A stretch of DNA of 64,000 bases from Sinohyriopsis cumingii (taxonomy: Eukaryota > Mollusca > Bivalvia > Unionida > Unionidae), in NCBI GenBank assembly GCA_028554795.2, contig CM068829.1, forward strand, positions 133,178,825-133,242,824, written 5' to 3'. This document shows positions 30,583 through 49,992 of this stretch, piece by piece; the first letter of the stretch is position 1; each line of letters begins with the position of its first letter. A program made the position numbers and the translations under genes. The notes beneath the pieces were generated by a model. That model worked only from the letters and a program-made list of their open reading frames with translations, searched no databases and was not told the origin of the DNA.

Positions 30583-30939
30583 AGTAGTGAATGGGGATAC
30601 CCTAGGGACAATGGGAATTACCATTACAGGACCCCTTGGGACAATCTTGGGACTATGTAAATTTAGCATGGGGAAAAATCATGGGACAATCTGGGGACTA
30701 TGTAAATTTAACGGGGGAAAAATCATGGGACAATCTGGGGACTATGTAAATTTAACATGGGGAAAAATCATGGGTCACTCTAGGGACAAGGGGAAATGGA
30801 ACAGGGTATTTTTTTTGTTTTTTTTAAAAAAAATAAAAAAAAAATAAAATAAAATAAAAATAAAAAAAAACGGGTAGGCAATTGAAAGTCGATCTCTTTT
30901 CGAGAGATGTGGGTGGCCCTGAAAAGGGCCTTTGGGTTT
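30583..30939 (+). repeat. Left terminal inverted repeat of the Polinton
   Basis: About 357 bp matching the reverse complement of 49622-49992 at roughly 97% by eye in the outer 210 bp. Structure: the AGTAGTGAATGGGG terminus; three tandem copies of a unit of about 45 bp (GGGACAATCTGGGGACTATG ... TTTAACATGGGGAAAAATCA); an A/T homopolymer tract (about 30811-30870); and, on the minus strand, a histone-type stem-loop. A 101-codon plus frame here is only translated repeat. Confidence 0.93.
30915..30930 (-). terminator. Histone-type 3'-end stem-loop, copy 1 (left TIR)
   Basis: On the minus strand: AAAGGCCCTTTTCAGGGCCACCCAC, i.e. a six-base-pair stem with a TTTC loop and the flanking bases usual for metazoan replication-dependent histone mRNAs. 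A purine-rich GAAAAGAGAT follows (plus 30894-30904 complement), as in a histone downstream element. It lies 19 bases after the stop of the minus-strand gene 30950-31180. Confidence 0.8.
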
Positions 30940-30949
30940 ATATATGCCC

Positions 30950-31180
30950 TTAACATAAAGGGCATCTGTGACTTCTTCTTGTCCTTAGGCTTCGTCTCAC
31001 TGTAGGACCGTAAATCAGGACTCTTTTGAGGCATCCTTGCCTCTCCACGTAAATCCTACGTATCCATAGGTTGCTGGCGGTCCTATGGACAACTGTCCAT
31101 TCGGATCGGACATACATCGGTATGTCCATCCTGAACATCATCGAAGACACAAGGGTTGATGATTCGACTGTGGTCCACAT
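30950..31180 (-). CDS. Small basic accessory protein, Polinton left end
   Basis: 76 codons, intact. I do not recognise the family; the C-terminal half is Arg-rich (RRSLRTRRSHRCPLC end) with two Cys. Evidence that it is a real gene: a minus-strand TATA box CTATAAATAA at about 31224-31233 lies about 45 bases upstream of the ATG, and a histone-type stem-loop with downstream purine element lies 19 bases after the stop. It is divergent from the coiled-coil gene at 31400, with a shared promoter region of 219 bp. The position suggests an early or regulatory product, which is inference. Confidence 0.55.
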   Translation of the reverse strand: MWTTVESSTLVSSMMFRMDIPMYVRSEWTVVHRTASNLWIRRIYVERQGCLKRVLIYGPTVRRSLRTRRSHRCPLC

Positions 31181-31399
31181 CTTGAGGCGCCGAGAACAGG
31201 TGAATCAATGAAGTGAATTGCGCTTATTTATAGGTAGAGGAAGGATTGAAACGGATTGAGTTCATTGACCAATCCAAACACGCGTTACAAAATTCAGTCA
31301 GCCCGCATCCAATCCGAAGAGAACAGTCTGTGACGTCACGTGGTCTATATAGATTCGTTAGCGCTTGTGTGCAGTCAGTCTGTGCGACAGTGATTCAAC
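31181..31399. promoter_or_regulatory. Divergent promoter region with CRE-like palindrome
   Basis: Minus-side TATA (CTATAAATAA, 31224-31233) and plus-side TATATAG (31346-31352), each about 45-50 bases from its ATG. TGACGTCA (31331-31338), the perfect 8-bp CRE/ATF palindrome, sits just upstream of the plus TATA and is directly followed by CGTG. Confidence 0.6.
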
Positions 31400-31936
31400 A
31401 TGACGGAAACTCAGAAAACGATCCATTGGGGTGCACCAGCAATGGAGACCACCCAAGGGAACCCGGACTTACTTTCAGAAGAGGTGAATTGGGATTTTGT
31501 GGATTTTCTTACCTCGCAAGAATTTGTTCCGGAACCTTCATTACCATAGGTGGAGAATTTTAGACAGAGACAGAAAGAAGAATTGGAGAAATTTATACAA
31601 CGACAAAAGGAAGCGGAACAAGCTTTTCTTTTACAGCAACAACAGCAAGAAGAGGTAAGAAAAAAACAAGAAGAAGAAGCAGCAGCAAAGAAACAAGAGA
31701 GTGAAAATCAAACGGTCACGGTACTGTTAGACATTTTAGCGGAGTTAAGAAGTCTGAAACAAATGTATCAGACTTCTTTATCACGACCGAAGAGAATACG
31801 ACCTTCCCGAGCTAAACACGCCAACCCTGTGACTAAGCCTACCGTACCACCCTTAGTGATTTCAACCCAATCATCATCATCAGAAGTAGGCCTCGGCCGT
31901 GGCAAAGGCTTAAGGCAGTTAAAGTTGATTGCTTAA
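31400..31936 (+). pseudogene. Coiled-coil accessory gene with one in-frame TAG
   Basis: From ATG 31400 a single frame runs to TAA 31934, interrupted by TAG at 31547 (codon 50). Before it: a Trp/Glu-rich acidic segment (EEVNWDFVDFLTSQEF). After it: a long Gln/Glu/Lys/Ala helix (RQRQKEELEKFIQRQKEAEQ and a run of Gln) then LLDILAELRSLKQMYQ and a basic, Ser/Pro-rich C-terminus. The pattern resembles a coiled-coil DNA- or protein-binding regulator; the family is unknown. A TATATAG box lies about 50 bases upstream and a histone-type stem-loop begins 25 bases after the stop. Translation could instead begin downstream of the TAG, giving about 128 residues. Confidence 0.6.
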
Positions 31937-31961
31937 ATTCACCCCTACACCAAAAACCAAA

Positions 31962-31977
31962 GGCCCTTTTCAGGGCC
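31962..31977 (+). terminator. Histone-type 3'-end stem-loop, copy 2
   Basis: CCAAAGGCCCTTTTCAGGGC continuing CACCCAC, then TCTCGAAAAGAGATAGAC as the purine-rich downstream element. It is internal to the element, not in a terminal repeat, and lies 25 bases after the stop of the coiled-coil gene. Confidence 0.8.
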
Positions 31978-32138
31978 ACCCACTTCTCTCGAAAAGAGAT
32001 AGACTTTCAATCGCCAATAACTCAAAAAAAACCCAAAAAAACAAAAACATTTTACTCCTATAGTACGTGTATATGAGTGCGTGAGTGTAGCTTCTTATTT
32101 AAAATCAAAACCCAAACACACTTACCTTTTTTACCTAA

Positions 32139-32144
32139 TTTATT
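32139..32144 (-). terminator. Possible polyadenylation signal for the zinc-knuckle gene
   Basis: AATAAA on the minus strand, about 82 bases beyond the minus-strand stop at 32226. No histone-type stem-loop is present at this gene. Confidence 0.35.
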
Positions 32145-32225
32145 CTTTTATCAATAGTTACAATCCAATTCACAATTCACAACAGAGCACTTTAAAAAGG
32201 ACATTCACTTCTTCTGTCTCACTTT

Positions 32226-32669
32226 TTAGTCTCTCTGTTTTTTAAATTTCTTCACCGTCACAGTCTTTTCCTCCTCTTCCTCCTCACTTTCTTCCCTTCT
32301 TGTTTTCTTCTCATGTTTCTTTATCTTCGCCTGTCTGCTATCTTCCTCCTCTTCTTCTTCTTCCTCTGAAGAATCCCTCTATTCTTCTGACTCCTCTTGT
32401 TTCTTTTTTGGGCAATCTGGAGACCAATGTCCTTTTTCTTGACAATAATAACAGGTATCTTGACTTTTGTCTCTTTTAACCCCTGTTTTTCTATTTTGAC
32501 GGTCTGGACACTCTGAAGACCAATGCCCTTTCTTCTGACAGATATAGCAAGTATCTTCACTTTTATCTCGAAAGGAAGGAGACTAGTCCGTCGCCTGGTC
32601 TGAAGAAAATTTTATAATGACCCCTCGCAACGCTCTGATGAAACGTTCCATCTGGGTAGTCTCTTCCAT
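32226..32669 (-). pseudogene. Double CCHC zinc-knuckle protein with two in-frame TAGs
   Basis: A minus frame runs from ATG 32669 to TAA 32226 (147 codons). It has TAG at 32585-32583 (codon 29) and TAG at 32381-32379 (codon 97). Between the stops are two CX2CX4HX4C zinc knuckles in tandem, CYICQKKGHWSSEC and CYYCQEKGHWSPDC, joined by a basic linker. This is the retroviral-nucleocapsid/CNBP type of single-strand nucleic-acid binding module. The C-terminal part is an acidic Glu-rich run then Lys-rich. The second TAG could be a natural stop because the text beyond it is low complexity. TATA on the minus strand (GTATATAAAC, 32733-32724) lies about 55 bases upstream. It is divergent from the polymerase gene. 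Confidence 0.65.
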
Positions 32670-32803
32670 CGTTGTGCTCGGCTTGAGAGTGAAATGAATA
32701 GTGAAAGGACAAGACAAACACCCGTTTATATACGCTGGTCTGCCATGACTATAAATTAGTCCATGGTGTTTAAACTTGAGTCATTTGACGTTTTGCACTC
32801 AAG
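32670..32803. promoter_or_regulatory. Divergent promoter between zinc-knuckle and polymerase genes
   Basis: Minus TATA GTATATAAAC at 32724-32733 and plus TATAAATT at 32750-32757, about 47 bases before the ATG at 32804. Confidence 0.5.
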
Positions 32804-35800
32804 ATGAAACGATCCAATTCATTTGAGAAGAAAGTAAGACGCAGAAACGTGATCTATCGCCTCGTACCAGAGCTGAAGTCTTGGCACAAATTCATGCCAG
32901 TGATTTTGAAGAGGACATGAGTGAACCAGAATCCAAACCCTCTAAACAAAGTTCGCCACCCTTAGAAAACCCTGAAAAATACTATTCAATTCGAGAGACC
33001 GAAAAGCGCTCCTCTAGAAAATTTAGAACCACGGCTTACAAATACACGGTGAAGTTTAAAGATTTCAAGGCTGAAGTACCGTTAGAGAAAGCAGAAGGGT
33101 TCATCACCGGGGTGTGGGATTCTTTGCTCACCACACTCAAGCGACAATGTCAACCCAAAGAAGACGATTGCTTGAGACTCTCCATACAACACGACGGTTT
33201 GAAATCCCCTGTTTGGATCGAGTTTAGCACCCCTGCAGAATTGACCGCTTCCAAAGTCATGGGCAAAATTCAACACGTACAACAATCCAATGACCAGTTT
33301 GACATCACCGATGGAAAAGCCACACTGGACATGACCCACGTCTCTCCTCCTCAAGGGACTGGACGTAAAAAGATGTTCTTGGTGGACGAGCTTCGCAGCA
33401 TTAAAACAAGTCTCGTCCGAATTCACAACCCTCAAGACCAGATGTGTTTAGCCAGGGCTATCGTGGTGGGACGAACCTATGCCAACAAAAACGACACGGT
33501 AGAATGGAAAAGAGCCTGGGAGAATATTCGAAAATCGGACCGAGCCAAACAACGAAGTGAAGCAGAAGTCCTGTTGCAACAAGCCGACATGCCCAAAGAC
33601 ACACCCTGTGGCATTCCTGAAATGCAAAAATTGCAAGATGTCCTAGCTCCACGATACACCTTGAAAGTGTACCCTCAAGAAGGGCGCGGACCTCTGTTGT
33701 TTCGAGGGAAAGACTTTAAGGACGGAAAATACATTCATGTCTTTTATCACGATGACCATTTCGATACCATTACCAGTATCACTGCATTCCTGGGATACGG
33801 TTATTACTGTGAGAAATGTGACTATGGTTATAACAATCGAGAGCAACACAAGCATTGCGGATCGAAATGCTCAGGATATTTGGCCTCTCCACCCTGTCTG
33901 AGCGAAGGACCAGTGCATTGTTCAACTTGTCTGCGCACGTTTATCAGCCCTACCTGTTCCCAAGCAACATTTGAAGACGCAAGGTTCACAGCAGAAATGT
34001 GCTTGTCAACTGCTGCGATTGTGCCCTACGTGTGGACAAGGTCTACGTACCAATAGTACCAAGGCACACGTATGTTCAGGAAAGAAAAAATGTCACATTT
34101 GTCACCACATCGTGGACTTGGAACACCAATGCTACGTGCGAAAATACCAACCCCCACCCGAGAAAGAGGATGGACACAAGAAGAAAGGCAATTACATGTT
34201 TTTCGATTTTGAATGCATGCCAGAAACTGCCATTCACATTCCTAATTTCTGCGTGGCTCATGGAGCGTGCGAGAAGTGCATTCAAGAACCTATCTTCAAT
34301 CATTGCCCTCACTGCAGCAAGATTCCCGGAGGGCGTGAAAAAATCTTTCGGGGACCGAACACGCTAGCCGATTTTGCCCAATGGGTCTTAGACCCCATCG
34401 ACAAGACGTGGAGCCAAGAGGACATCGAACGTTACGGAGATTATCATCGTCATGCCACAGTGATGGCTCACAATTTCTCCGGATACGATGGACAGTTTCT
34501 TTTGAGATACTATACGGAACAAGGCACCGAACGTCCTAAAGTCACTTTGAACGGAGACAAAATCATTTTCATGCAAGTGGGACAAGTGCAGTTTAAAGAT
34601 TCGATGAGTTACTTAGCCATGTCTTTGAGTCGAATGCCTAAAACATTTGGAATGACAGAAATGGCTAAAGGATACTTTCCACACTTTTTCAATACGGAAG
34701 CCATTCTATCCCATTTGCCTGAGGCTCACTATTACGACCCTGACAACATGCGTACCGAACAACGAGAAGCTTTCTACGCTTGGTACCAGGCTCACGCCTC
34801 CGACCCTTTCGACTTTCAGGAAGAAATGTTAAAGTATTGTCGTTCCGACGTGGACATTTTACGGCGTTGCTGTTGAAAATTTCGAGAACTGTTCATGGAA
34901 CACGGAGGGGTCGATCCTTTGAAAGAAGCTTGCACCATTGCCAAAGCGTGTTCCTTAGTGTACCGGCAACGATTCATGCCTGAAAACAGCGTAGCTGTCA
35001 TCAGTCCTCAAACGACCAACTATGTCAAACGTCAATACTCGGTCAAAGCCCTACGCTGGTTACATTACTTGTGCGACAAGGAAGACAAGTAGATTCAGCA
35101 TGCCCGCAACGGAGTGGGCGAAAAGACCATCGGAACGCATTCGGTCGATGGTTGGGACTTAGAAAACCCCAAGATCGTGTACGAGTTTAACGGTTGCTTA
35201 TTTCACTGATGTCCCGTCTGTTATCCTGACCGTGGCACTAAAAATCAGTTTTTACAACGAACCATGGAACACTTGTACCAGGCCACTTGTCAGCGACGCC
35301 TAAAGTTAGAACAGGAAGGATACCAAGTTGTGGAAATGTGGGAACACGAATACGATCACAGTTTGAAAACCGATCCCGAGTTTAAAAGCATCGTGGAAAG
35401 TTACCAGTTCATGGACCCCCTGAACCCAATGGATAGTTTGTACGGAGGAAGAACCAATGCCACCTGTTTGCTGTACCAAGCCGACGAAGAGAAAGGAGAA
35501 GAAATCAAATACTTGGACGTGTGTTCGCTGTATCCCTACGTATGCAAATATTGTCGCTTTCCTGCAGGGCACCCACAATTGTTCACGGAACACATCGACC
35601 TGAAAAACATTTGACAATACGAAGGCTTGATCAAGTGCAAAGTTTTGCCTCCCAAGGACTTGTACCATCCCGTGTTACCTCACCATTGTCAAGGCAAACT
35701 GATGTTTCCTTTGTGCCGTACTTGTGCCGAAACGTGCAACCAAGATCAACCTTGCCACCACACCCAGGAAGAACGCGCCTTGACGGGGACGTGGGTCAAC

Positions 35801-36872
35801 GTAGAATTGTTCAAAGCTCTGGACATGGGATACCAACTGTTAGAAGTGTACGAAATTTGTCACTTTCCCAAGACACAACAATATCACAAGGGTGACCCCA
35901 CGCAGAAAGGCATTTTCGCCGACTACGTGGATGCCTTTTTGAAACTGAAACAAGAAGCCAGTGGCTATCCTTCCTGGTGTCACACTCCCGAAGACCAAAA
36001 GACATTCAAAGAGAAATACTGGGCACAAGAAGGCATTACTTTAGAACACATCGAGGAAAACAAAGGCAGGCGATCATTTGCCAAAGTGATGTTAAATTGC
36101 TTGTGGGGTAAAATGGCACAACGTCCGTGTTTACCCAAGACGAAGTATTTGACAGAACCTTCCCGCTACTTTCAGATGATTCACGACAAAACCAAATTCA
36201 TGAAACACGTGGACGTCGTTCGCGAGGATTTGATCTTGGTCAATTACGAAGAAGATCTGGACTTTGTACAAGAAGACCCTTTTGGAAATGTCATCATTGC
36301 GGCTTACGTGACAGCTCATGCTCGCTTAAAATTGTATGAAGCTTTAGAACTGTTAGGGGAACGCGTCCTGTACTTTGACACGGACAGTTGCATTTACATC
36401 CATCACCCGAGTCAACAGCACCCTGACATCGAAATAGACCGTTTAGGAGCCTGGACAGACGAGCATCCCGACGACAAGTTTCGTCAGTGGCGGTCCAAAA
36501 AATTGCGGCTACGAATACCGGGACCCACAAGGAGAAGTGTACACGAAGTGTAAAGTGAAAGGATTGACTCTGAATTATCGTACCAGTCGTGTGGTCAACT
36601 TTGGGGTATTGAAAGAAGCCTTGCAGTCTGGAGAGGATGAACACTTTAAAGTGACCACCTATCAACCCAACAAGACTGTACGTTTACCCACTCACCAAAT
36701 CGTCAGTCGACCCTTAGAAAAAGTCTATCAAATCGTGTACCAGAAGCGGGTGCGACTTCCCAATCATTTCACCTTACCGTATGGACACGTCGGTATTGGT
36801 CTGTATATAAAAAGGAACCCTAGGCAAGATCGATGGTTCATTGTGACTACCAAGACCAAGCGAACAAGATGA
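32804..36872 (+). pseudogene. Protein-primed family B DNA polymerase (Polinton PolB), broken
   Basis: The replicase of the element. The N-terminus has a module starting RKFRTTAYKYTVKFKDF, followed by a Cys-rich zinc-binding region (about 33800-34130). Exonuclease motifs: FFDFEC (ExoI, about 34199), AHNFSGYD (ExoII, 34466-34489), YCRSDVD (ExoIII, 34835-34855). Polymerase motifs: DVCSLYP (A, 35516-35536), KVMLNCLWG (B, 36083-36109), YFDTDS (C, 36371-36388). All catalytic motifs are still readable. Lesions: one-base frame changes near 32830, 33960 and 36480, and stops TGA 34874, TAG 35090, TGA 35207, TGA 35612. The start is the TATA-proximal ATG 32804; ATG 32917 is an alternative. The length of about 1,350 codons suits the family. 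Confidence 0.92.
36804..36813 (+). promoter_or_regulatory. TATA box of the BIR gene
   Basis: TATATAAAAA inside the 3' end of the polymerase frame, about 55 bases before ATG 36869. Confidence 0.5.
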
Positions 36873-37504
36873 ATACTTTCAGAGAAACACAAAACAAGTT
36901 TAGAAAGGCACAATTCAAGTTTGGGGCTTCTGAAGTGGAATGCGATTGTGAGCCTTGCGATGGGAACGATGCTGTACGCTGTGACCTTAGCGATGCCGTA
37001 AAGCATCATGGGAACTTTGTTCTCACTACCCCTATCATGGAAAGTGATGCTGTGCGTGTCAAACCTGAGGGATGCGAAAGCGATGCCGCTCGTCCTCTTG
37101 GACATTTTACTGGGTTTCGTTTTAAAGGTGGATGTTCACCTTCACGTCTACCTCCCTACGGATGTCATCCAGCCCTGAGCAAACTCCTATCCATGTCACC
37201 CAACCCTCATCGAAACGAACCTGTGAAAGGCGAATATTCGTTTCCTGTGCGTTTGTCGGAATACTGCGACTTTGAAAATCGTCTTCAATCGTTCAAAAGA
37301 AAATGACCTAAGTATCTCGTCGGACCGACCCCCGAAGAATTAGCCAGAGCCGGATTGTTCTCCTTGGGCGAAGGAGATAAAGTCAAGTGCTTCAGTTGCG
37401 GTGTTTCACTTCACCACTGGGAACCACAAGGTTCGGCCTACGTAGAACATGCTCGATGGTCACCGAATTGTCATTACTTACCCTTAGTGGGACCGAGACA
37501 TTGA
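36869..37504 (+). pseudogene. BIR-domain (inhibitor-of-apoptosis-like) protein with one in-frame TGA
   Basis: A frame of 211 codons from ATG 36869 to TGA 37502, broken by TGA at 37304. The C-terminal part after the stop holds the zinc core of a baculovirus-IAP repeat: CFSCGVSLHHWEPQ...VEH......C, spacing CX2CX16HX6C exactly, with the usual Trp and Glu-His. The internal TGA falls in the conserved front part of the BIR. The N-terminal 125 residues are Cys/Asp-rich with repeats of a DAV/DAA motif and are not recognised; no RING follows. BIR proteins block caspases or signal in innate immunity and are often acquired by large DNA viruses. The gene has its own TATA. As written it yields only the N-terminal half. 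Confidence 0.75.
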
Positions 37505-37526
37505 AGTAACTTACCATAATCTGTTT

Positions 37527-37895: not shown

Positions 37896-37897
37896 AA
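37891..37897 (+). promoter_or_regulatory. TATA box
   Basis: TATAAAA overlapping the end of the preceding frame. The first ATG (37908) is only 11 bases beyond it, so translation of the next gene probably starts further downstream. Confidence 0.4.
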
Positions 37898-37907
37898 TCA
37901 GGAATCC

Positions 37908-38643: not shown

Positions 38644-38672
38644 AACATTCAATAAGCGTGTCCTGAAAAAAG

Positions 38673-38680
38673 TATATAAA
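38673..38680 (+). promoter_or_regulatory. TATA box of the ATPase gene
   Basis: TATATAAA, 46 bases before ATG 38727. The leader after it (TCTCGTCTTGTCTG...GTGTCAC) resembles that of the next gene. Confidence 0.6.
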
Positions 38681-38726
38681 CTCTCGTCTTGTCTGTTTTC
38701 GTGTCACAAGTGACATTCCTAACACT

Positions 38727-39455
38727 ATGGCTACCTCTGCTGTCTCTGCTCCCTCTTCCTCTACTGTCAAAGTCATCGACGAACACTTAGATCGTGCCAG
38801 TTGGGAGGCTTTGTATCTTCGCCATCCCTTTAACATGCTCATTGCTGGACCTAGCGGTTCAGGCAAAACCGAATTCGTCAAACGCTTGATCGAACATAAA
38901 CATAATTTGATCGATCGACCACCTCAGCGCATCGTGTGGTGTTACACAGAGTGGCAATCGGCGTACAGCCTCTTGCGAGAAAGTCAAGGCGATTCCATCG
39001 TGTTTGTGGAAGGCATTCCTAAAGAAGACGAAGTCATCGTCTCTGACTCCCGTCAAACCCATTTGGTCATTTTCGACGACATGTTAGGAGAAGACGAAGA
39101 AGAAATTAAACTGTGGTTCACGCGCAAAGGGCATCATCGTAATGCCAGTGTCGTTTACATCACTCAAAATTTGTTTCAACAAAGTAAAGCCCATCGCACC
39201 ATCAGTCTCAATGCGCATTACGTGGTCTTGTTTAAAAGCCCTCGAGATAAATCGCAAGTGCAAGTCTTAGCCAAACAGTTAGGAACGCCTTGGCTGACTC
39301 AGGCGTACGACGATGCCACTCAAACGCCACACGCCTATTTACTCGTCGATTTGAAACCTACGCCCCCCGATGATTTGCGATTTCGTACCCACTTGTTTCA
39401 CCACTGGTGCCAGGACGGAGGGCCTGTCCTGTACACGTCTCCGTCCTCGACTTAA
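38727..39455 (+). CDS. Genome-packaging ATPase (FtsK/HerA superfamily), intact
   Basis: 242 codons, uninterrupted. Walker A GPSGSGKT at residues 41-48; Walker B HLVIFDDML at about residues 111-119 with the two Asp; then a sensor-like VVYITQNLF segment in which Gln/Asn follow a beta strand, as in the A32/FtsK-HerA packaging enzymes of Polintons, virophages and nucleocytoplasmic viruses. The role by family is translocation of the element's DNA into a capsid. Length and motif order are normal for Polinton ATPases. It has its own TATA. Confidence 0.93.
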   Translation: MATSAVSAPSSSTVKVIDEHLDRASWEALYLRHPFNMLIAGPSGSGKTEFVKRLIEHKHNLIDRPPQRIVWCYTEWQSAYSLLRESQGDSIVFVEGIPKEDEVIVSDSRQTHLVIFDDMLGEDEEEIKLWFTRKGHHRNASVVYITQNLFQQSKAHRTISLNAHYVVLFKSPRDKSQVQVLAKQLGTPWLTQAYDDATQTPHAYLLVDLKPTPPDDLRFRTHLFHHWCQDGGPVLYTSPSST

Positions 39456-40984: not shown

Positions 40985-41611
40985 ATGGAAGGACGAAAAC
41001 TAGCTTTAGTGTCTTACAAACGATGGATGGAATTCCATCGTTGGCAAGAACAACACACCCCGCATTTACCTCCCAATCCCCATTTGAGCGAAATGTCCCA
41101 GTTACAGCATGAATTCCAGTCCTTGATGGATCGCAAAGATTTGTCCGAAACAGAAAAATCGCAAAAGTACGGTCAACTCTTGCAACGACTGCAACTCTTT
41201 CACCAGAAAGCTTTAGACGAAACAGCTCTACCCACTCTGAAAGATTTTAAGACCTTGATGAAAAGTTCAGCACCATCACCAGTACCACCACCACTACCAG
41301 TGACCAAGACAGAACAAGAAGAAGAAGAAGAAGGGTTTCAAACTCCACCAGAAAAAGTACGCAAGCTAACAACACCACCTACCTCCAGAATTGGATGGAT
41401 TAAAAAGATGATGACCACCCCTTCTTCATCACAAGAGAAAAAGAAAGTGAAGACAGAAGTGAAGACAGAAGTGAAACAAGAACCGATATCCCCTGTTCCG
41501 ACATCCTCCTCTGCGACATCAATTGCTGGTCGCACACGCAAAGCATTGCAATCCAAGAAAGTACCCCAAGAGAAAAAGAGTAGCATCTTCCAAGAGTGGG
41601 TACCTTATTAA
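40985..41611 (+). CDS. Polinton hypothetical protein with acidic/Pro-rich middle, intact
   Basis: 208 codons. N-terminal third: a helical domain LVSYKRWMEFHRWQE... and LQHEFQSLMDRKDLSETEKS with QKYGQLLQRL; the pattern 'M..(I/L)L.D..L...EK...Y...L.R' recurs in uncharacterised Polinton proteins. Middle: Pro/Thr-rich with a Glu run. C-terminal: KTEVKTEVKQEP, which holds overlapping psi-K-x-E SUMOylation-type motifs, then basic. Function unknown. It lies just upstream of the integrase with a 14-base gap. Confidence 0.6.
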   Translation: MEGRKLALVSYKRWMEFHRWQEQHTPHLPPNPHLSEMSQLQHEFQSLMDRKDLSETEKSQKYGQLLQRLQLFHQKALDETALPTLKDFKTLMKSSAPSPVPPPLPVTKTEQEEEEEGFQTPPEKVRKLTTPPTSRIGWIKKMMTTPSSSQEKKKVKTEVKTEVKQEPISPVPTSSSATSIAGRTRKALQSKKVPQEKKSSIFQEWVPY

Positions 41612-41625
41612 CACACAAACACAAA

Positions 41626-42734
41626 ATGGCAAAAGTGTTAGCCAGCATTTACTACGATCCCTCGCATCCTGCAGGTTACGCAGGAGTTCAAAAATTGTAT
41701 CGTGCTGCGAAAATGCGACTGAAAAGTCTCCGTTTACCTCAAGTGCAACGATGGTTGCAAGAACAAGCTACCTACACTTTACACAAACCCATTCGACACA
41801 AGTTTTCCAGAAGTCGCACCCAAGTGGAAGGCATCGATCATCAATGGCAAGCCGATTTAGCCGATGTCTCTCATTTGGCCAGCTACAATCGCGGCTACAA
41901 ATATTTGTTTTGTGTCATCGACGTCTTTTCAAATTTGCCTGGGTCGTACCCTTGAGTTCCAAATCGAGCAGCGAGTTAGTGCGAGCCCTGCAACGAGTGT
42001 TGAAACAAAGCGGTCGTCACCCTCTTCGATGGCAAACGGACAAAGGCACCGAATTTCTGAACCAAGCTTTCCAAAAAGAATTAAAGAAACGTGACATTCA
42101 TTTTTTTACCACCGAGAATCCCGAAACCACAACCAGCATCGTGGAACGTTTTCAACGCACTTTGAAAGAATGTATGTGGAAATATTTTACGCATCACCAC
42201 ACTCTGAACTACATCGACATCTTACCGCACCTGGTGCAAGCGTACAACCAATCTTACCATCGAAGCATCGGACGTGCCTCGCAAGACGTGACTCCCGAAA
42301 ACGAAGTGCTGGTGTTTGAGCGCATGTTTCGTACGTCCCCGACGAGGGCTGCCCCCAAGAAAAGTGGAGTGTTGACCGTATGAGATTGGGTACGCATTGG
42401 CAAAACCAAACGCACTTTTGACAAAGGTTACTTACCTAACTGGACGACCGAATTGTTTCGTGTCACTGGACGAGTGCATGGCCGTCATCCTGCCGTCTAT
42501 AAATTGGAAGACATGAACGGAGAAGTGCTCAAAGGAACGTTTTACTTACCCGAGTTACAACGTGCCACCAAAAAAGAAGACGACGTGTACGACATCGAAA
42601 GCATTCTCGAACGCAGAACCCGTAAAGTGGGCAAACGACGTGTCAAAGAAGTCAAAGTACGTTGGAAAGGATATCCACCCAGTTTTGATTCTTGGATCGA
42701 CGCTTCGCAAGTCATCGACTATAAAAAGAAGTGA
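41626..42734 (+). pseudogene. Retroviral-type integrase with C-terminal chromodomain, broken
   Basis: DDE-class integrase responsible for Polinton insertion. Catalytic core: first Asp in HQWQADLAD (codon at 41854), second Asp in QTDKGTEF (42039), Glu in SIVERF (42144), with 34 residues between the last two. A C-terminal chromodomain (about 42588-42731) shows VYDIESILERR and VKVRWKGYPPSFDSW; chromodomains bias integration toward marked chromatin. Lesions: a one-base frame change near 41930 between the first and second catalytic Asp, and TGA at 42381 between the core and chromodomain. The start is ATG 41626. Confidence 0.9.
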
Positions 42735-42739
42735 CCATC

Positions 42740-43150: not shown

Positions 43151-44076
43151 GTCACCAAAACCAATTTTACTCAACCTTACCCAGTGACAGTTCCATGGAG
43201 GTGTTTCCCAAGAACACGTTGTGCTGTTACACGGCCAAATTACCTCAGACCATCCCATTAGATCACGAAGCCCATTGGGAAGTGGCTTTAGTAGAAATCA
43301 TTCACCCGACCCAAGTCCTCAATGTCCTTCCCAATCAAAATTGTTTGGATGTGGAAGTTCATGACGAACAATTGCAACAGTACTTGGATACCCATGGCAA
43401 ATATGACAAGAAAACTCCTGGCACAAAAAATCAAAAGTACACCACCTATCACTTGTTCGTTCCCCCAGGCTATTATTTTAGTGGTCAACATTTGATGAGC
43501 ACCATAGCCTCCAGGTTTAATGTCGTGTTTCTGAAAGCTTTGGAAAGTGTCAAAAAAAGTGTCACCATGGAATACCACAAAGCAGCTCGTCGCTTCTTGA
43601 TGAAATTTGACGGGAGTAAAATCGTGTCCATTTTATTTTGTCCTGAATTGTTTGACATGTTGGGCGGAGACATGGACATGAGAATGGCCATGATGAAGAA
43701 AAACGAATTGCCAGTCATTTACGACAACGAGTCTTTTAGCAAGTTATTTCGTGTCTCTGAACTGAACCAAGGACTGGATTTGATGTTTGTGTACTCCGAT
43801 GTGGTGGAGTATAACGTGGTGGGACACACCTCTGTGCCGTTACTGCGTGTCATTCCTTTCAAAGTGGATTCTGCCACGGTCACTGACGAGGAAGGTGGAA
43901 ACACTTACCACATTCACCGCGAATTTGTACATCCTCACTATCTGCCTGTCAGTAAGTCTTATTTGGACACGGTCAACATTGCTATAAAAGGAGATCTGGG
44001 ACAAAATATTTCATTCACCAAAGGAAAAGTCACGGTGAAACTCCATTTTCGAAAACGGTTCTCTCACGACTTGTAA
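43147..44076 (+). CDS. Minor capsid (penton) protein, single jelly-roll, intact
   Basis: 309 codons. It begins with the typical Polinton mCP pattern FYSTLPSDSSMEVFPKN... then HWEVALVEIIHPTQVLNV; further beta-rich segments follow (FVPPGYYFSGQHLM, ...FSKLFRVSELNQGLDLMFVY) and the C-terminal strand VTVKLHFRKRF. By family this forms the pentameric vertex capsomer. The start overlaps the preceding stop by four bases. The frame is clean over its full length. Confidence 0.85.
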   Translation: MSHQNQFYSTLPSDSSMEVFPKNTLCCYTAKLPQTIPLDHEAHWEVALVEIIHPTQVLNVLPNQNCLDVEVHDEQLQQYLDTHGKYDKKTPGTKNQKYTTYHLFVPPGYYFSGQHLMSTIASRFNVVFLKALESVKKSVTMEYHKAARRFLMKFDGSKIVSILFCPELFDMLGGDMDMRMAMMKKNELPVIYDNESFSKLFRVSELNQGLDLMFVYSDVVEYNVVGHTSVPLLRVIPFKVDSATVTDEEGGNTYHIHREFVHPHYLPVSKSYLDTVNIAIKGDLGQNISFTKGKVTVKLHFRKRFSHDL

Positions 44077-44079
44077 GTC

Positions 44080-44505
44080 ATGTATCCAGTGTACCGAGGG
44101 GTTGCTCGACAGCGAGGACACGGTTTAGGAGATATGTTAAAATCGGCCTTTCGTTCGGTGGCCCCGGTGTTGAATCCGATGGTGACACGCGGATTGCATG
44201 CCTTGAAAGATGCGGCACTGACACAAGGCAAAGAATTTCTCCAAAATGTCATCATCGACAAACAAAATCCTAAAGAAGCCTTCTTCAGGGCAGGCAAAAA
44301 TGTCTTGCTGCAAACGGGCAAAGACCTTTTGGGCCGACGAGACACACCTATAAATGCCCTGCACGCTACCGAATCAAGCATTCAGCAAGGACAAGGCAGA
44401 AAGAGACGACGAAGAAAACACCCTTTCACCAGACTTCACACGTCTAAAGCTAAAAAGGCAAAGAAAAGAAGAACCGTTCGAGACTTAGACGTTTTCGATT
44501 ATTGA
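44080..44505 (+). CDS. Small basic virion-type protein (adenovirus pVI/core-like), intact
   Basis: 141 codons, three bases after the minor capsid gene. N-terminal VARQRGHGLGDMLKSAFRSV is an amphipathic, Gly-containing helix; the middle has LKDAALTQGKEFLQNVI; the C-terminus has a strong nuclear-localisation-like tract (GRKRRRRKHPFTR, KAKKAKKRR). Polintons usually carry such a gene between the capsid genes; the comparison to adenovirus pVI or core proteins is structural analogy. Confidence 0.6.
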   Translation: MYPVYRGVARQRGHGLGDMLKSAFRSVAPVLNPMVTRGLHALKDAALTQGKEFLQNVIIDKQNPKEAFFRAGKNVLLQTGKDLLGRRDTPINALHATESSIQQGQGRKRRRRKHPFTRLHTSKAKKAKKRRTVRDLDVFDY

Positions 44506-44519
44506 GAAAGAGAAAAAAA

Positions 44520-45842
44520 TGATGCACCGAGAGTCTTGCGCCTGTTCCAAGTCGGAACTGGATCTGTTTGCCATGCCCCCCACCATGATGACCATGCAAG
44601 AATCCCAATGGGTGGAATTTCATCCCGTCTCCTCTTTGACGGATTCCTCCCGTTGAGTTTGAAATCAAAGGACAACCCGAAGATTACATCGATCTGAATA
44701 GCAGTTACCTGTATTTGAAAGTGAAAGTGATCAAAACGGACAACACCAATCCAGGAGGCGATGCTAGAGTAGCTCATGTCAACAATTTCATGCATTCCTT
44801 GTTCAGCGAAGTGGACTTGTACTTGAATAACAAACTGGTCAGCAGCAGCATGGATACTTACCCATATCGTGCCTACCTGGAAAATCTCTTGACTTACGGA
44901 AAAGAAGCCAAGAATTCTTATCTGGATGCTTGCGTGATATGGAAACCTGACACGGCAGGTGTAGGAACGTTTAGCGACACAGTCCTGACAGAAGATGACA
45001 ATCCTCACAATGTGGGGTTTAACGACCGTCGTAAGAAAATTCTGCAAGGGCGAAGTTTAGAACTGATGGATCGTTTGCATTTGGACATGTGGTTACAAGA
45101 AAAGTATTTGCTGAACGGGGTGGATATCCGTCTGAGACTGAATCGTAGCAGTGCCGCTTTCCATCTGATGGCCCATGCCAATGAATACAAAACTATCATT
45201 CAAGAAGCCCGACTTTACGTGCGTCGTGTGGAAGTGTTACCTAAAGTGGGAAACGACGTCAGTCAGACGTTGAGCAGAACGACCGCCAAGTATCCGATAC
45301 GACGCGTAGAAGTGAAAACGTTCACCATTCCCGCTGGACAGCGATCTATGATCGAACATCATCTGTTCCAAGGACAGTTACCCAAGCGTTTGATTCTTGG
45401 TATCGTCAGGAATTCAGCCTTCAACGGGACCCACGATCAAAATCCTTTTGAGTTTCAACATTACAATGTGTCCAAGATCGAAGTCAGTCGCGACGGCAAG
45501 ACCTTGTGTACCCGACCCTTTGAGCCCAACTTTGGTGTCGCGAAGAATTATTTGAGATCGTACTTGTCCCTGTACGAAGCCACCGGACAGTTAGGAACCA
45601 ACACCAGTCACGGTATTTCGTACGACGATTATGCAGGAGGCTATGCTTTGTGGGGTTTTGATTTCACTCCAGACCAAGGCGGCGACGAGGGACATTTCCA
45701 CCCTATAAAATCAGGTCAGATTCGTGTGGAACTTCAGTTTGCAAATCCACCTCCAGATCACACAGTGAACGTCATCCTGTATGCAGAATTTGACAATACC
45801 ATAGAAATCAGCAGTTTGAGAGAAGTCATTCTAGACTATTAG
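44520..45842 (+). pseudogene. Major capsid protein (double jelly-roll) with one frame change
   Basis: About 440 codons from ATG 44520 to TAG 45840. The N-terminal 40 codons (SCACSKSELDLFAMPPTMMT) are in one frame; a one-base change near 44640 moves the rest to another. The remainder is uninterrupted and has the Polinton MCP layout: GQPEDYIDLNSSYLYLKVKV, HVNNFMHSLFSEVDLYLNN, YPYRAYLENLLTYGKEAK, later LRLNRSSAAFHLM and a long C-terminal jelly-roll with VNVILYAEFDN. The product would form hexon-like trimers. Length and motifs are normal apart from this single lesion. Confidence 0.9.
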
Positions 45843-45847
45843 AAGCC

Positions 45848-46099
45848 ATGGAAGACTGTTATCCTTCTTTGCCTAGTGGAGAAACTTTGAAGATGGAATG
45901 TGAGGAGACCGGGGAAGAAGAATCTCAAGACAAAGACGAAGAAGTTATCATGATGAAGTCAAGATGGCCAGAACAAGAAGCACATTTAGTCTCCTGTTTT
46001 GCCAAACACTTGGTCGAAAAAATGACGAAATTGATCAAGAAAGATTGCTATGGATGTCAAAACGATCATCCCAGTCAAATTCACCACGATAAATGCTAA
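45848..46099 (+). CDS. Small acidic protein with C-terminal Cys/His cluster, intact
   Basis: 83 codons, five bases after the capsid gene. The acidic N-terminal half (EETGEEESQDKDEE) is followed by a helix and the end KKDCYGCQNDHPSQIHHDKC, a compact CX2C...HX4H...C arrangement likely to bind zinc. The 'DCYGC..(H)PSQ..H..C' ending recurs in Polinton small proteins and in my view marks a real conserved gene, function unknown. Its stop overlaps the next start. Confidence 0.65.
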   Translation: MEDCYPSLPSGETLKMECEETGEEESQDKDEEVIMMKSRWPEQEAHLVSCFAKHLVEKMTKLIKKDCYGCQNDHPSQIHHDKC

Positions 46100-46375
46100 T
46101 GCTGAGTCAAGAAGAAAAATTGAACGAGTATCTGGACGAAGCTTGGAGTCTCATCTCGGACGAAGTCGTGTTGCATCAGTGGTATAAAGACTTGCGTGAA
46201 CATTCTTGTCCACCATTAACCACTCAAGAGATCGATCGCATCGAAGTTCTCCTGAATCAGAGTGGGGAGACGAAGCGAAGAAACGGTTATTTGTCAGACA
46301 TTTTCAAGCAAAAAGTCAGGATCGAATTGATGACTTATTATTACCTGTGAAGAAGAAACAAAAACACACAAAATA
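46099..46375 (+). pseudogene. Small helical protein upstream of the protease, probable frame change
   Basis: ATG 46093 or 46099 opens a frame with EEKLNEYLDEAWSLISDEVV and HQWYKDLREHSCPPL. Past about 46255 the more protein-like text moves to another frame (QDRIDDLLLPVKKKQKHTKY), which runs up to the protease start. The reading as written ends at TGA 46348 after 85 codons. Function unknown; a one-base change near 46255 is likely but not certain. Confidence 0.4.
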
Positions 46376-46935
46376 TGGATACCTGGGAACTTTATTACCT
46401 TTTGAACCACAGTTCGTACACGGCTTCTTGGAATCCTGTCGTATGTGCTAAAGATGAACTCCCTCATCGCAAACCTCAAGACCATCTAGCTTATGTGATC
46501 AACACGGACGACAGTCATCTCCCAGGAACCCACTGGGTAGCCGTCTACTTTCCTCAAGAAGGATGTGTGGAATATTTCGATTCGTATGGATTGCCTCCTT
46601 TGGAAGACGATATCATTGACTTTATGAGAAGAAATGCTCAAACCACCCGATTCAATAATGTGAAATTACAAGGCACAGATTCCTTTGTGTGTGGACAATA
46701 TTGAGTGTATTTTCTGCATCATCGCAGCCTGGGCTATTCCTTAGAACATTTAGTGACTCATTTTGATCCTCGTTCTTCTTCTAGAAACGATGTGAAAGTA
46801 GATCAATGGTTTTGTGACCATTATGCTTATCTTTTGTCTCAAGCTAGGAAACGTAGTGTCCATCAATGGCCTAATGACTTCCAACAGTGGAAATCACAAT
46901 TTCATTCACAACGTTGTCAGTCTTGTCCAAAATAA
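46375..46935 (+). pseudogene. Adenain-like cysteine protease (PRO) with one in-frame TGA
   Basis: 186 codons from ATG 46375 to TAA 46933, cut by TGA at 46702 (codon 110). C5/Ulp1-type motifs: His53 in GTHWVAVYF, Asp69 in VEYFDSYG, Gln99 in the oxyanion position, Cys106 in DSFVCGQY; so the stop lies four residues after the catalytic Cys. The rest (YFLHHRSLGYSLEHLV and a His/Gln-rich tail) is open. By family it processes virion proteins. The truncated product would lack the helix that packs behind the active-site Cys. Confidence 0.87.
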
Positions 46936-47184
46936 TGTGTGAGTTGGAAAAAAAAAATGTTTGTCATTTGAAACAAAATGTTTGATGTTATATTGTTGGA
47001 TTATTGTTAAAAATGTTAGAGTTGTTTGTTAGTGTTAAGTGATTTTGAATAAAAAATGTTGTGTTTTGAAAAAAAAATGCCTTTGTGGTTTGTTTGACTA
47101 TAGAAATCTTGATTCATGCTCTTTGACTTCTTACTATCCCTCTCATGGCACTCATTGAACGTTCCGGCTCGAAAACCGTGGAGG
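46936..47184. other. 3' region of the virion block with polyadenylation signal
   Basis: AT-rich spacer with repeated AAAAATGTTTG motifs and AATAAA at about 47048-47053. Unlike the accessory genes at the ends, no histone-type stem-loop is present here. Confidence 0.5.
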
Positions 47185-47220
47185 GATGTTTTCCTTCACG
47201 TCCGCGCTTTGACTTTAAAG
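47185..47220 (+). promoter_or_regulatory. Shared promoter block, cassette A
   Basis: GATGTTTTCCTTCACGTCCG followed by CGCTTTGA and a TATA-like CTTTAAAG (47213-47220), about 53 bases before ATG 47273. The same block precedes cassettes B and C. Confidence 0.65.
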
Positions 47221-47272
47221 CCGGGGTAGCCTCCAGTCTAACCATCCATTGTCGACTCATCCTCCTACGAAG

Positions 47273-47636
47273 ATGTGCTCCAAACTTGCTAAGCTAAACG
47301 AAGCCTACGTGAATTTGCGCAGGGTCAGACACAGTCTGATACCGAAGCCAGAAGAGATAGAGAATGTGAGAATGCTAAAAGTCACTGAAGACCTGATAGA
47401 AGAGCTCTTCAGAGAAGCAGTGAACAGGGAGAAAGAAGAATGGACAGAGAAGTACAGACTTCAGAAGCAGTAGAGAGAGCAGCAACAGCAGCAGCAACCT
47501 GAACCTGACAGAGGCTTTGTCGATTGTCGTATCGACACCAAAGAGTTATTCTTCTCTTTCCGAAGAAGCAGACCTATCGTCAGAAAGTCTATCGTCAGAG
47601 GACATCTCATTCTTAGAAACTAAAAGATTGCCATAG
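47273..47636 (+). pseudogene. Cassette A: small coiled-coil accessory gene, broken
   Basis: ATG 47273 opens 66 codons starting MCSKLAKLNEAYVNLRRVR and including VTEDLIEELFREAV and EKEEWTEKYR, ending at TAG 47471. Coding text continues in frame as a Gln run and then, after a frame change, as an acidic Ser/Glu-rich tail (SSLSEEADLSSESLSSEDIS) to TAG 47634. A histone-type stem-loop begins 12 bases later. The N-terminus resembles that of cassette B (MNTRLAKLLELHVHLEYAR), so the cassettes look paralogous. The family is unknown. Confidence 0.5.
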
Positions 47637-47648
47637 CAAACAAAAAAC

Positions 47649-47664
47649 AGCCCTTTTCAGGGCT
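47649..47664 (+). terminator. Histone-type 3'-end stem-loop, copy 3
   Basis: AGCCCTTTTCAGGGCT followed by ACCCA, with purine-rich CTAGAAAAGAAATAG about 10 bases on. The closing base pair differs from copies 1, 2 and 5 (A-T for G-C) but the pairing is kept, i.e. a compensatory change that supports selection on RNA structure. Confidence 0.78.
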
Positions 47665-48035
47665 ACCCAATACTCTAGAAAAGAAATAGTAATCCATTTG
47701 CCAATGTGTGTAGGTAGAGTAGTGTGAATATAAACACGGACTCTTTTTTATAGTGTGAGTGTATGTGTTTGTGTATATGATTGTGTGTTTGTAAGTGCTC
47801 ACGTACGTTTGTGTGGATAGTAGATTATGATGATGTTTTTTTTTTTGCAGTTTGACGTGTGGGGAGAGTAGATTTGGGGTTTGATTGGATTGCTTTGCGT
47901 ATGTGGATAGTATATTATTTGTTTAATAAAATTTTTTAGAATAGTGATGGGTAGTATAAAAAGTGAGTGAGTGTTTCTTTTAGGTCCGCGCGTTTGTTTG
48001 GTTATGATCTAGGTAAGATCAATTTTGTTTTAGGG
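47665..48035 (+). repeat. Cassette spacer A-B: GT-rich with GTGGATAGTAGATT repeats
   Basis: Post-terminator sequence that is repeated after cassette B (GTGAATATAAACAC, ACGTACGTTTGTGTGGATAG). It contains copies of (G/A)TGTGGATAGTA-ATT at about 47811 and 47901, and a partial promoter-like block at 47982 (TCCGCGCGTTTGTTTGG). Confidence 0.6.
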
Positions 48036-48070
48036 GATGTTTTCCATCACGTCCGCGCTTTCAGTATAAA
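48036..48070 (+). promoter_or_regulatory. Shared promoter block, cassette B
   Basis: GATGTTTTCCATCACGTCCG then CGCTTTCAG and TATAAA at 48065-48070, 55 bases before ATG 48125. Confidence 0.7.
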
Positions 48071-48124
48071 TTAAAAATCGTTCGGCAGTCTAGCTACCCT
48101 TGTTGATTGATCAACACCACCAGA

Positions 48125-48466
48125 ATGAACACCAGACTGGCCAAACTGCTTGAACTTCATGTACACCTGGAATATGCCAGGCGTATAGTGAATGAGCTGG
48201 CTGCAGAGGCCATCGTAGAAGAGGGAAGGATGAAAGAGGAGGAGAGAAGAAACAAAGAAGAGGAGGAGAGAAGAAACAAAGAAGAGAAGGAGAGAAGAAA
48301 CAAAGAAGAGGAAGAAAAGGAGAGAGGAAATTTAAGAATCCCAGAGACAGAAGATTGGGGTTCTGAAGCCACTTATCCCGCCTCTGCTCTCCCCCAAAAA
48401 AGAGTGAAAAGAGACTGGGGAAGAAGATGTGTGTGTGGTGCCAGGCCTGGAAGGTGCCATCATTAA
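48125..48466 (+). CDS. Cassette B: small charged coiled-coil accessory protein
   Basis: 113 codons from ATG 48125 to TAA 48464, open. N-terminus MNTRLAKLLELHVHLEYARR parallels cassette A. A central tandem repeat of ERRNKEEE units gives an almost pure Glu/Arg/Lys/Asn helix. The C-terminus is WGRRCVCGARPGRCHH, Cys/Arg-rich; an alternative frame also has protein-like text, so a late frame change is possible. A histone-type stem-loop begins 29 bases after the stop. Unknown family; likely regulatory or scaffold (inference). Confidence 0.5.
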   Translation: MNTRLAKLLELHVHLEYARRIVNELAAEAIVEEGRMKEEERRNKEEEERRNKEEKERRNKEEEEKERGNLRIPETEDWGSEATYPASALPQKRVKRDWGRRCVCGARPGRCHH

Positions 48467-48495
48467 CCAGGTGTCACTGGAGTTCAAAAACAAAC

Positions 48496-48511
48496 AGCCC
48501 TTTTCAGGGCT
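48496..48511 (+). terminator. Histone-type 3'-end stem-loop, copy 4
   Basis: AGCCCTTTTCAGGGCT followed by AACCA and the purine-rich CTAGAAAAGAAATGG. Same compensated closing pair as copy 3. Confidence 0.78.
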
Positions 48512-48612
48512 AACCAATTGTCTAGAAAAGAAATGGTAATCGATTTGCCAATGTGTGTATGTAGAGTAGTGTGAATATAAACACTGACTCTTTTTATTTG
48601 TGTGAGTGTGTG

Positions 48613-48700
<88 letters not shown>

Positions 48701-48883
48701 GCGCTCACGTACGTTTGTGTGGATAGTAGATTATTGGGTTATGTAAGAGCTTAAGTTGGTTCGTGTGAATAGTAGATTAGGGTTTCATTTTAATGCTTTG
48801 CGTGTGTGGATAGTAGATTCGGGGTTTGTTTATTGCTGTTTCACGTATGTGGATAGTAGATCATATGAAATGAGAAAAGTAGG
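48512..48883 (+). repeat. Cassette spacer B-C: (GT)n tract and GTGGATAGTAGATT repeats
   Basis: Repeats the start of spacer A-B, then an expanded (GT)n tract (about 48616-48698), then four further copies of GTG(G/A)ATAGTAGAT(T/C) at about 48717, 48765, 48806 and 48848. The iterated 14-mer may be a protein-binding or replication-related site; this is inferred from repetition alone. Confidence 0.6.
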
Positions 48884-48985
48884 TGATGTTTTCCTTCACG
48901 TCCGCTCGTTGTTTGGTTATGGTCTAGGTAATATAAATTTTGTTTTAGGGAATGTTTTCCATCACGTCCGCGCTTTCACTATAAG
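48884..48985 (+). promoter_or_regulatory. Doubled shared promoter block, cassette C
   Basis: Two copies: GATGTTTTCCTTCACGTCCG at 48884 and AATGTTTTCCATCACGTCCG at 48951 with CGCTTTCAC and TATAAG at 48980-48985, 50 bases before ATG 49035. The segment between them (GTTTGGTTATGGTCTAGGTA) is also present before cassette B (about 47996), so the promoter unit was tandemly copied. Confidence 0.68.
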
Positions 48986-49034
48986 AACCCACAGTATTAG
49001 TCGTTCGCACCATTCTAAGGAATAAAGAAAGAAG

Positions 49035-49615
49035 ATGGAGGTGACAAAATTATTTAGCGTTTTGAGACATAGCTATTTTTGGATCATGGATGGGACTTAT
49101 GTAGTAGAAAGATTGAATAAGGAAGGAAGATTTGAAGGTAGCCTGAACAATGTGAAGAGTCTTGGAGTAGCAAAAGATCAAATGGGGGAATGATTGAGGA
49201 AGAAGTAGAAAGAATCAGAGGATTCATTGACCCACCTTACGCGAGAGTAGGTACTTTAAAGGAAGCATTGGATCATATCATAGAAGTCAGGAGCTTCCTA
49301 TAAAATAGCTTTCATTGGACTGACTGGTGGTACGTAAAGTGGGGTTATAACCAGTTGATAAAAACAGAAGAACTAATTAGAGGGGTAATGAAAGTAGAAG
49401 TGATGAAGATAAAAGAAAAATGGAGCAAAGAGAGAAAGGAAGAAGAGAATAAGAAGAAATTAGAGTTTGAAAGATTAAATAACAACTGGATGAAGATCCA
49501 AGAGAAATTTAGAGAGATGGGCTATCCTGACTGGATAACAGAGGAGGAGAAGAAGAGGAAGAAGAATGGAATTTTGGGAAAGATAAGGGGATGGTGGAAG
49601 AAGTGGAGGAGTTAG
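49035..49615 (+). pseudogene. Cassette C: Trp/Lys-rich accessory gene, broken
   Basis: Starts at ATG 49035 (MEVTKLFSVLRHSYFWIMDG). A frame change near 49185 lies in a run of five G; the continuing frame has VERIRGFIDPPYARVGTLKE, then TAA at 49301, then HWTDWWYVKWGYNQL and a long charged helix (EKWSKERKEEENKKKLEFER) ending IRGWWKKWRS at TAG 49613. The motif LIKTEELIRGV...KEKW is like VTEDLIEEL...KEEW in cassette A, suggesting common descent. A histone-type stem-loop starts 15 bases after the stop. Function unknown. Confidence 0.5.
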
Positions 49616-49621
49616 AAGAAG

Positions 49622-49992
49622 AAACCCAAAGGCCCTTTTCAGGGCCACCCACATCTCTCGAAAAGAGATCGACTTTCAATTGCCTACCCGTTTTTTTTTT
49701 TTTTTGTTTTTATTTTATTTTATTTTATTTATTTTTTTTATTTTTAAAAAAAAAAACAAAAAAAATCCCCTGTTCCATTTCCCCTTGTCCCTAGAGTGAC
49801 CCATGATTTTTCCCCATGTTAAATTTACATAGTCCCCAGATTGTCCCATGATTTTTCCCCATGTTAAATTTACATAGTCCACAGATTGTCCCATGATTTT
49901 TCCCCATCCTAAATTTACATAGTCCCCAGATTGTCCCAAGGGGTCCTGTAATGGTAATTCCCATTGTCCCTAGGGTATCCCCATTCACTACT
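49622..49992 (-). repeat. Right terminal inverted repeat of the Polinton
   Basis: About 371 bp, the reverse complement of 30583-30939 with a handful of substitutions and a longer homopolymer tract. It ends CCCCATTCACTACT. The plus-strand histone-type stem-loop lies at its inner edge. Confidence 0.93.
49631..49646 (+). terminator. Histone-type 3'-end stem-loop, copy 5 (right TIR)
   Basis: CCAAAGGCCCTTTTCAGGGC continuing CACCCAC, then TCTCGAAAAGAGATCGAC. Sense to cassette C, 15 bases after its stop. Because the signal is inside both terminal repeats, genes read out toward either end meet one. Confidence 0.82.

Follow-up and report, generated by a model that had tools for sequence, protein, structure and literature searches.

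Accessory genes of a Polinton in the bivalve Sinohyriopsis cumingii carry histone-type 3' ends, in part with histone promoter elements, and may be expressed like replication-dependent histone genes

The 64,000-nt stretch of the Sinohyriopsis cumingii genome analysed here (C6:133178825-133242824, henceforth the window) contains a Polinton of 19,410 bp, whose five small accessory genes, two at its left end and three at its right end, are followed by 3' units built like those of the host's histone genes. We propose that these genes are expressed like replication-dependent histone genes, as non-polyadenylated mRNAs made in S phase, and give this reading a probability of roughly 0.78. The histone stem-loop pathway is commonly seen as exclusive to replication-dependent histone genes; as far as we and the open-licence literature can tell, no mobile element or DNA virus has been known to mimic them, and this one would be the first to do so.

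All five stem-loops listed in a preliminary description of this DNA are present in the window, and we scored them with the Rfam model RF00032 (Histone3, gathering score 34 bits). The assertion that they match the metazoan histone 3' element holds; three score above gathering (30935-30890 on the minus strand, 39.5 bits; 49626-49671, +, 39.5 bits; 31957-32002, +, 39.2 bits), and the other two fall below it (47644-47690, +, 33.0 bits; 48491-48536, +, 26.7 bits). A pattern of the core loop, allowing up to three mismatches, occurs exactly five times in the 64 kb and on average 0.00 times in 100 dinucleotide-preserving shuffles; together with a genome-wide backwards control that returned zero, these shuffles rule out a chance origin of the loops. 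The purine-rich downstream element described earlier, GAAAAGAGAT or GAAAAGAAAT, is indeed found 3' of all five, each unit consisting of the hairpin, ACCCA (AACCA at 48496), a spacer of about 8 nt and then one of these two sequences.

The first unit (30895-30930, −) lies in the left terminal inverted repeat (TIR), its hairpin at 30915-30930 being followed by ACCCA, the spacer and GAAAAGA, and the second (31962-32000, +) has its hairpin at 31962-31977 and ends in GAAAAGAGAT. Two units of the AGCCC/GGGCT type, the ones below gathering, are found at 47649-47687 (+) and 48496-48534 (+), and the last lies in the right TIR at 49631-49666 (+). Because the first and last loops (30915, −, and 49631, +) are one TIR sequence (arms 30826-30939 and 49622-49735, 93% identity), the window holds four distinct units, not five. 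All are sense to a small open reading frame (ORF), as first reported, at stop-to-hairpin gaps of 15, 19, 25, 25 and 29 nt, a range of 15-29 nt instead of the 12-29 given originally. The four histone-type genes examined have no poly(A) signal (AATAAA or ATTAAA) within 250 nt. A change of the closing pair from G-C to A-T, which had been taken as a sign of RNA-level selection, does keep the pairing; it is weak evidence alone, because it concerns one pair and separates the two unit types. An extra box, TTTGCCAATG or CTTTCAATTGCC, lies 3' of GAAAAGA at 47700-47710 and 48545-48555 and in the 63-nt units.

Host histone genes were located with an H4 protein sequence and, for the other histones, by tblastn with human proteins; H1 was named from its ORF. 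The H4 search gave 114 matches in the genome (a 2.9-Gb assembly of 1138 contigs), mostly in arrays spaced by about 8.3 kb. One histone repeat (L085) holds H4, H2B, H2A, H1 and H3, each with a 3' hairpin scoring 35.0-39.4 bits, and the window's left and TIR units score comparably to these five or above them. The host hairpin reads GGCCCTTTT[T/C/A]AGGGCC, with GGTCC/GGACC in H1, and is followed by 5 nt, a further 8-9 nt and then GAAAAGA preceded by CTA in four genes or CCCGAAAAGG in H2A. The Polinton units are built in the same way as these host 3' ends, downstream element included, and the likeness lies in layout and largely also in sequence. Positions 31951-32011 of the window are 78% identical to the 3' end of host H2B over 65 columns (E 1.5e-7), which makes descent of the unit from a histone gene plausible.

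The Polinton genes share with replication-dependent histone genes the hairpin, the spacing, the GAAAAG downstream element and a short distance from stop codon to hairpin (27-38 nt in the host; mostly 15-37 nt in element genes with an intact ORF, rising to 56-70 nt in cases of an apparently shifted or shortened ORF). The right-hand genes share in addition a promoter element at a similar distance from the ATG. They differ from histone genes in encoding small proteins, four of which were searched and match no Pfam family above cut-off, and in belonging to a dispersed mobile element, and the left-hand pair also in being without the promoter element.

This promoter element, absent from the preliminary description, is a repeat, GATGTTTTCC[AT]TCACGTCCGCGCT, which lies 5' of the three right-hand genes and is a promoter element of host histone genes. 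Upstream of right gene 1 it occupies 47185-47208 (+) and agrees at 95.8% of 24 nt, with one mismatch, with the copy before host H2B. The copy before right gene 2 (48036-48059, +) is identical over 24/24 nt to L085 779-802, upstream of H2B, and is preceded by a copy of the host H4 promoter element (47974-47996, +; it agrees at 23/23 nt with L085 8242-8264, which precedes the next H4). Right gene 3 has a copy at 48952-48974 (+), identical to the host H2B promoter over 23/23 nt, and a second, weaker one with three mismatches at 48884-48905 (+). Within the host repeat, the element also stands before H1 (one mismatch in 26 nt) and, in reverse orientation and with three mismatches, between H2B and H2A. 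For the Polinton genes the ATG follows 83-88 nt after the start of the element; for host H2B and H1 this distance is 104-106 nt. Downstream of the element, host H2B has a TATAAATA box, and right genes 2 and 3 have TATAAA and TATAAG.

When up to five mismatches are allowed, the promoter motif matches the window six times, four of these within the accessory cluster and the other two with five mismatches each, compared with a mean of 0.005 matches for 200 shuffled motifs. GTCCGC sites, counted on both strands, are confined to promoter-element places in the histone repeat (4/4); in the Polinton, the accessory promoters hold five of the six, and the DNA polymerase B (PolB) region holds the remaining one. 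Genome-wide, the exact element occurs 3,008 + 3,211 = 6,219 times, host H2B genes included, and 0 + 0 times in the backwards control. The core ACGTCCGC resembles the HiNF-P site. HiNF-P is reported to bind H4 promoters and to recruit NPAT (PMC5706932), and our guess is that it might be the factor that binds here. The three right-hand genes look like complete histone-type transcription units. Since they carry the promoter element as well, S-phase expression is likelier than the 3' end alone would make it.

The stem-loop and downstream element of histone genes are reported to yield a cleaved, non-polyadenylated mRNA, with U7 pairing and with S-phase histone locus bodies (PMC9756948). By analogy, we infer that SLBP would bind the hairpin of an accessory mRNA, that the host U7 small nuclear ribonucleoprotein would pair with the GAAAAGA element (CTAGAAAAGA), and that cleavage 3' of ACCCA would leave an mRNA ending just past the stem-loop, without a poly(A) tail. 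Because the right-hand genes start from copies of the host promoter element, their transcription would rise with that of the histone genes at S-phase onset. The small proteins may then help the element exploit S phase in replicating itself; that they do so by preparing the cell is a guess. We hold with less assurance, while still favouring it, the fuller claim that the accessory genes imitate host histone genes almost completely and are expressed in S phase without poly(A), with histone locus bodies as the possible site. The preliminary description had already tied the genes to S phase, and the part of its case that stands consists of the histone-type 3' elements, their recurrence across copies and the host-like downstream element.

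If this is true, a mimicry strategy accompanies the expansion of the element into thousands of copies within this bivalve genome, and Polintons have a concrete tie to host DNA replication. A virus-like element would be timing its genes without a regulator of its own, and nature would here have tested which signals are enough for histone-like expression in S phase. Poly(A)-selected RNA-seq would miss the accessory transcripts.

An unlikely alternative, and the one that survives best, accepts true histone-type 3' ends and gives them another use, either to end mRNAs quickly and without poly(A), or to draw on maternal stores of SLBP in the egg and early embryo, where germline insertion would pay. 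The two left-hand genes, which have the 3' unit without the promoter element, fit such a use; for a mere 3'-end device, however, the promoter element of the right-hand genes would be superfluous.

The units are not confined to the window copy. A genome-wide Rfam scan gave 75 scored matches from 589,472 first-look candidates, a list that is no census because the histone arrays do not appear in it. Thirty loci were fetched, chosen by their loop. All 30 match Polinton ends, with one aligned piece spanning the loop in 29, and a second loop-like site (up to four mismatches, unused in choosing) is present in 29/30, the exception being L031. In ten end stretches chosen instead by the capsid-type gene, the unit is found in 9/10 (five of five right ends and four of five left ends), the right ends holding 2, 3, 3, 3 and 3 units. 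All four left units there exceed the Histone3 gathering score (4/4, 41.2 bits). A loop lies within 1500 bases of the capsid-type ORF in 2/30 loci, as the map of the element predicts. Whether related copies lack the loops had been put beforehand as the question on which the idea turns; checked inside this genome, loops are present across copies.

The promoter element occurs in 12/12 of the loop-chosen loci with a right end only and in L020, which has both kinds of end; the other 17 are without it, and it is present in five of the five right ends chosen by the capsid-type gene. The exact 3' unit is found 13,555 + 13,886 = 27,441 times genome-wide, against 0 + 0 in the backwards control. At five units each this corresponds to about 5,500 element equivalents, or about 100 Mb if full length, with fragments certain to exist among them. 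About 100 listed places were inspected by eye; in these the closing pair is G-C or A-T throughout, though the pattern allowed others; the wider set of units has a few unpaired closing positions (L005 and L011, for example). The ends of two copies seem to lie together in L020 and in L017, which suggests nested or neighbouring insertions. Insertion of the Polinton into a histone cluster is ruled out as a source of the loops, which lie inside the TIR-bounded element; H2A, H2B, H3 and H4 gave no tblastn match in any of the 30 fetched loci (0/30).

Three of the five accessory genes are interrupted in the window copy, and intact ORFs occupy the same places in other copies. The left minus gene (30950-31180, −; 76 amino acids) stops 19 nt before the TIR hairpin, and the left plus gene (31400-31936, +) has an in-frame stop near 31547 here and reaches up to 195 amino acids elsewhere. 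Right gene 1 (47273-47623, +) has an in-frame stop near 47471 and encodes 119 amino acids in loci L066 and L067; right gene 2 (48125-48466, +; 113 amino acids) is open in the window and has the conserved C-terminus RCVCGARPGRC; right gene 3 (49035-49615, +) shows a frame change near 49190 and a stop near 49301, and in our reading is probably related to a 204-amino-acid ORF of L021. The proteins are small and charged. Four of them were searched against Pfam, with no family above cut-off, and the matches below cut-off are not believed. For right gene 3 a single homologue was found, in the freshwater mussel Sinanodonta woodiana (83% identity over 64%). Right gene 2 has nine relatives (P0122-P0130), which come from metagenome and other collections, lie on contigs of 765-4543 bases and share the same invariant C-terminal end; they are possibly related elements or a free environmental virus. 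The slot of right gene 3 is filled by two different proteins across copies (L066 1612-1992 versus L021 873-1487 and window 49035-49615), as if by cassette exchange, and the two end alike, in RSWWRKRRN-like and RTWWKKWRS-like C-termini.

The accessory genes are under protein-level selection. The ratio of non-synonymous to synonymous substitution (dN/dS) was obtained for the right genes from copies picked among 15 loci with an intact ORF, giving 0.03 for right gene 1 (4 copies, two of them partial), 0.19 for right gene 2 (7 copies) and 0.08 for the other protein occupying the slot of right gene 3 (5 copies). For the left genes 22 loci were searched, some of which do not reach the left minus gene; that gene gives 0.14 (15 copies). 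It has been a possibility to us, though a very improbable one, that the loops are decoys and that transcripts of the element soak up SLBP or U7 and so lower host histone output. Thousands of copies would suit such a role; the genes upstream of the loops, however, are more than decoy carriers, because they are under selection for their proteins.

The 3' signals themselves are strictly conserved. Seven copies of right gene 2 have a synonymous difference (pS) of 0.49, yet their hairpins differ in 0/336 pairwise comparisons; the corresponding counts are 6/231 for AGAAAAGAAAT, 6/105 for ACCCA, 27/147 for the spacer and 74/273 for the next 13 nt. Across 21 units unused in choosing the loci, the mean majority frequency is 0.98 for the hairpin, 0.99 for ACCCA, 0.98 for the downstream element and 0.98 for the TTTGCCAATG box, compared with 0.90 for the spacer, 0.85 immediately beyond and 0.76-0.83 for the flanking sequence. 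This conservation is selection on the signal, and far stronger evidence for it than the single closing-pair change.

The same figures bear on the idea, slighter still, that the units act in DNA, in replication ending, recombination or integration, with the likeness to histone genes secondary. The TIR loop, placed at the inner margin of the repeat, hints at it, and two of the five units do lie inside a TIR; yet each of the five is in sense orientation to a small gene whose stop codon lies 15-29 nt before it, the single-stranded ACCCA and GAAAAGA are conserved like the hairpin and at histone spacing, and the matching promoter elements would be left unexplained. Least probable of all is that 3' ends and promoter pieces of host histone genes were acquired in a single capture and persist as functionless hitchhikers: the 78% identity to the H2B 3' end is what one would then see, but hairpins without a difference and six differences in 231 for the downstream element, at a pS of 0.49 in the same copies, and a conservation of 0.98 against 0.76-0.85 in the flanks, rule out passive hitchhiking.

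Several observations count against histone-like expression of these genes. No U7 RNA was recovered from the genome by Rfam (0/65 scored candidates) or by pattern (38 matches versus 63 in the backwards control); ten places were read and scanned, the best match reaching 21 bits against a cut-off of 34. SLBP was likewise not found with PF15247 (0/14 candidates), a search that is uninformative because the exons are short. Among the stretches chosen by the capsid-type gene, 12/14 right units score below Histone3 gathering and 2/14 above, and the left end L074 has lost its unit with a deletion of about 270 bp; L067 and L068 have each lost one base around ACCCA. The promoter element is found in none of the five left ends chosen in this way, the left-hand genes being without it, and it was looked for and not found before host H3 in L085. 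The left plus gene (ORF in 17/22 loci, 12 used) is only weakly constrained, with a dN/dS of 0.44.

As the preliminary description had surmised, no prior account of such 3' ends in Polintons was found in the open-licence full-text literature. In PMC11071296, the passages on 'histone' deal with histone-like proteins, and the term 'stem-loop' is absent (0 occurrences). The nearest viral case is the reported binding of SLBP to SARS-CoV-2 frameshifting RNA (PMC12166091). The two would be alike in that a viral RNA engages SLBP, as the Polinton mRNAs are predicted to do; in SARS-CoV-2, an RNA virus, SLBP is described in that source as acting on frameshifting, whereas the Polinton is a DNA element with whole histone-type 3' ends. 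A search of IMG/VR with the capsid-type ORF, PolB and right gene 2 gave no confirmed relatives, and a search there with the loop pattern gave two contigs, neither with an Rfam match at E 0.01. Contigs with Polinton genes are filed under bacterial metagenome-assembled genomes (MAGs) of marine hosts (L003 and L004, from an Escarpia symbiont and Breoghania; P0018 is a Thiodiazotropha protein), and are probably host contamination. The two partial relatives with DNA among them (L003, an Escarpia symbiont MAG contig, and L004) have no loop.

The Polinton itself (30583-49992, +) is bounded by inverted repeats at 30583-30939 and 49622-49992, in pieces of 91-96% identity, and flanked by the 6-bp target duplication GTCAGT at 30577-30582 and 49993-49998. 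PolB is present in pieces (33971-36553, +), with PF03175 in two ORFs at 53 and 41.4 bits, above cut-off, and is by this match predicted to be of the protein-primed type. A packaging-type ATPase (38727-39455, +) matches PF04665 (Pox_A32) at 33.3 bits, above cut-off, and an integrase-like ORF (41523-42383, +) matches PF00665 (rve) at 27.7 bits (E 3.4e-6), below the cut-off of 32.6. With Polintons/Mavericks and adintoviruses the element has in common its TIRs, the 6-bp duplication, PolB and the packaging ATPase, and probably also the integrase-like ORF and a capsid-type ORF; it differs from them in its histone-type gene ends and starts. Mavericks have been reported across mollusc genomes (PMC10294476).

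The presumed capsid-type ORF (44715-45842, +) has 807 homologues, of which 120 are listed, and no Pfam match; a Pfam search of three candidate capsid or maturation protease ORFs gave no match. The organism-named homologues among the matches listed are from the bivalves Mercenaria, Saccostrea, Ostrea and Crassostrea, plus a single MAG, labelled Candidatus Thiodiazotropha. Within the genome, 109 capsid-type ORFs were scored out of 28,175 first-look candidates (L035-L064 among them); all but the window's are 97% identical to the query and stop-free, a uniformity that points to a recent, very large expansion of this virus-like element. A poly(A) signal, AATAAA, stands at 47048-47053 (+), 128 nt past the estimated end of the last core gene, and the ends of the remaining core ORFs in the window have none within 250 nt; the core genes may therefore share one 3' end. 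On either side of the Polinton, at 9880-12348 and 52131-53123, lie reverse-transcriptase-like ORFs, which, to judge by their translations, apparently belong to non-LTR (long terminal repeat) retrotransposons.

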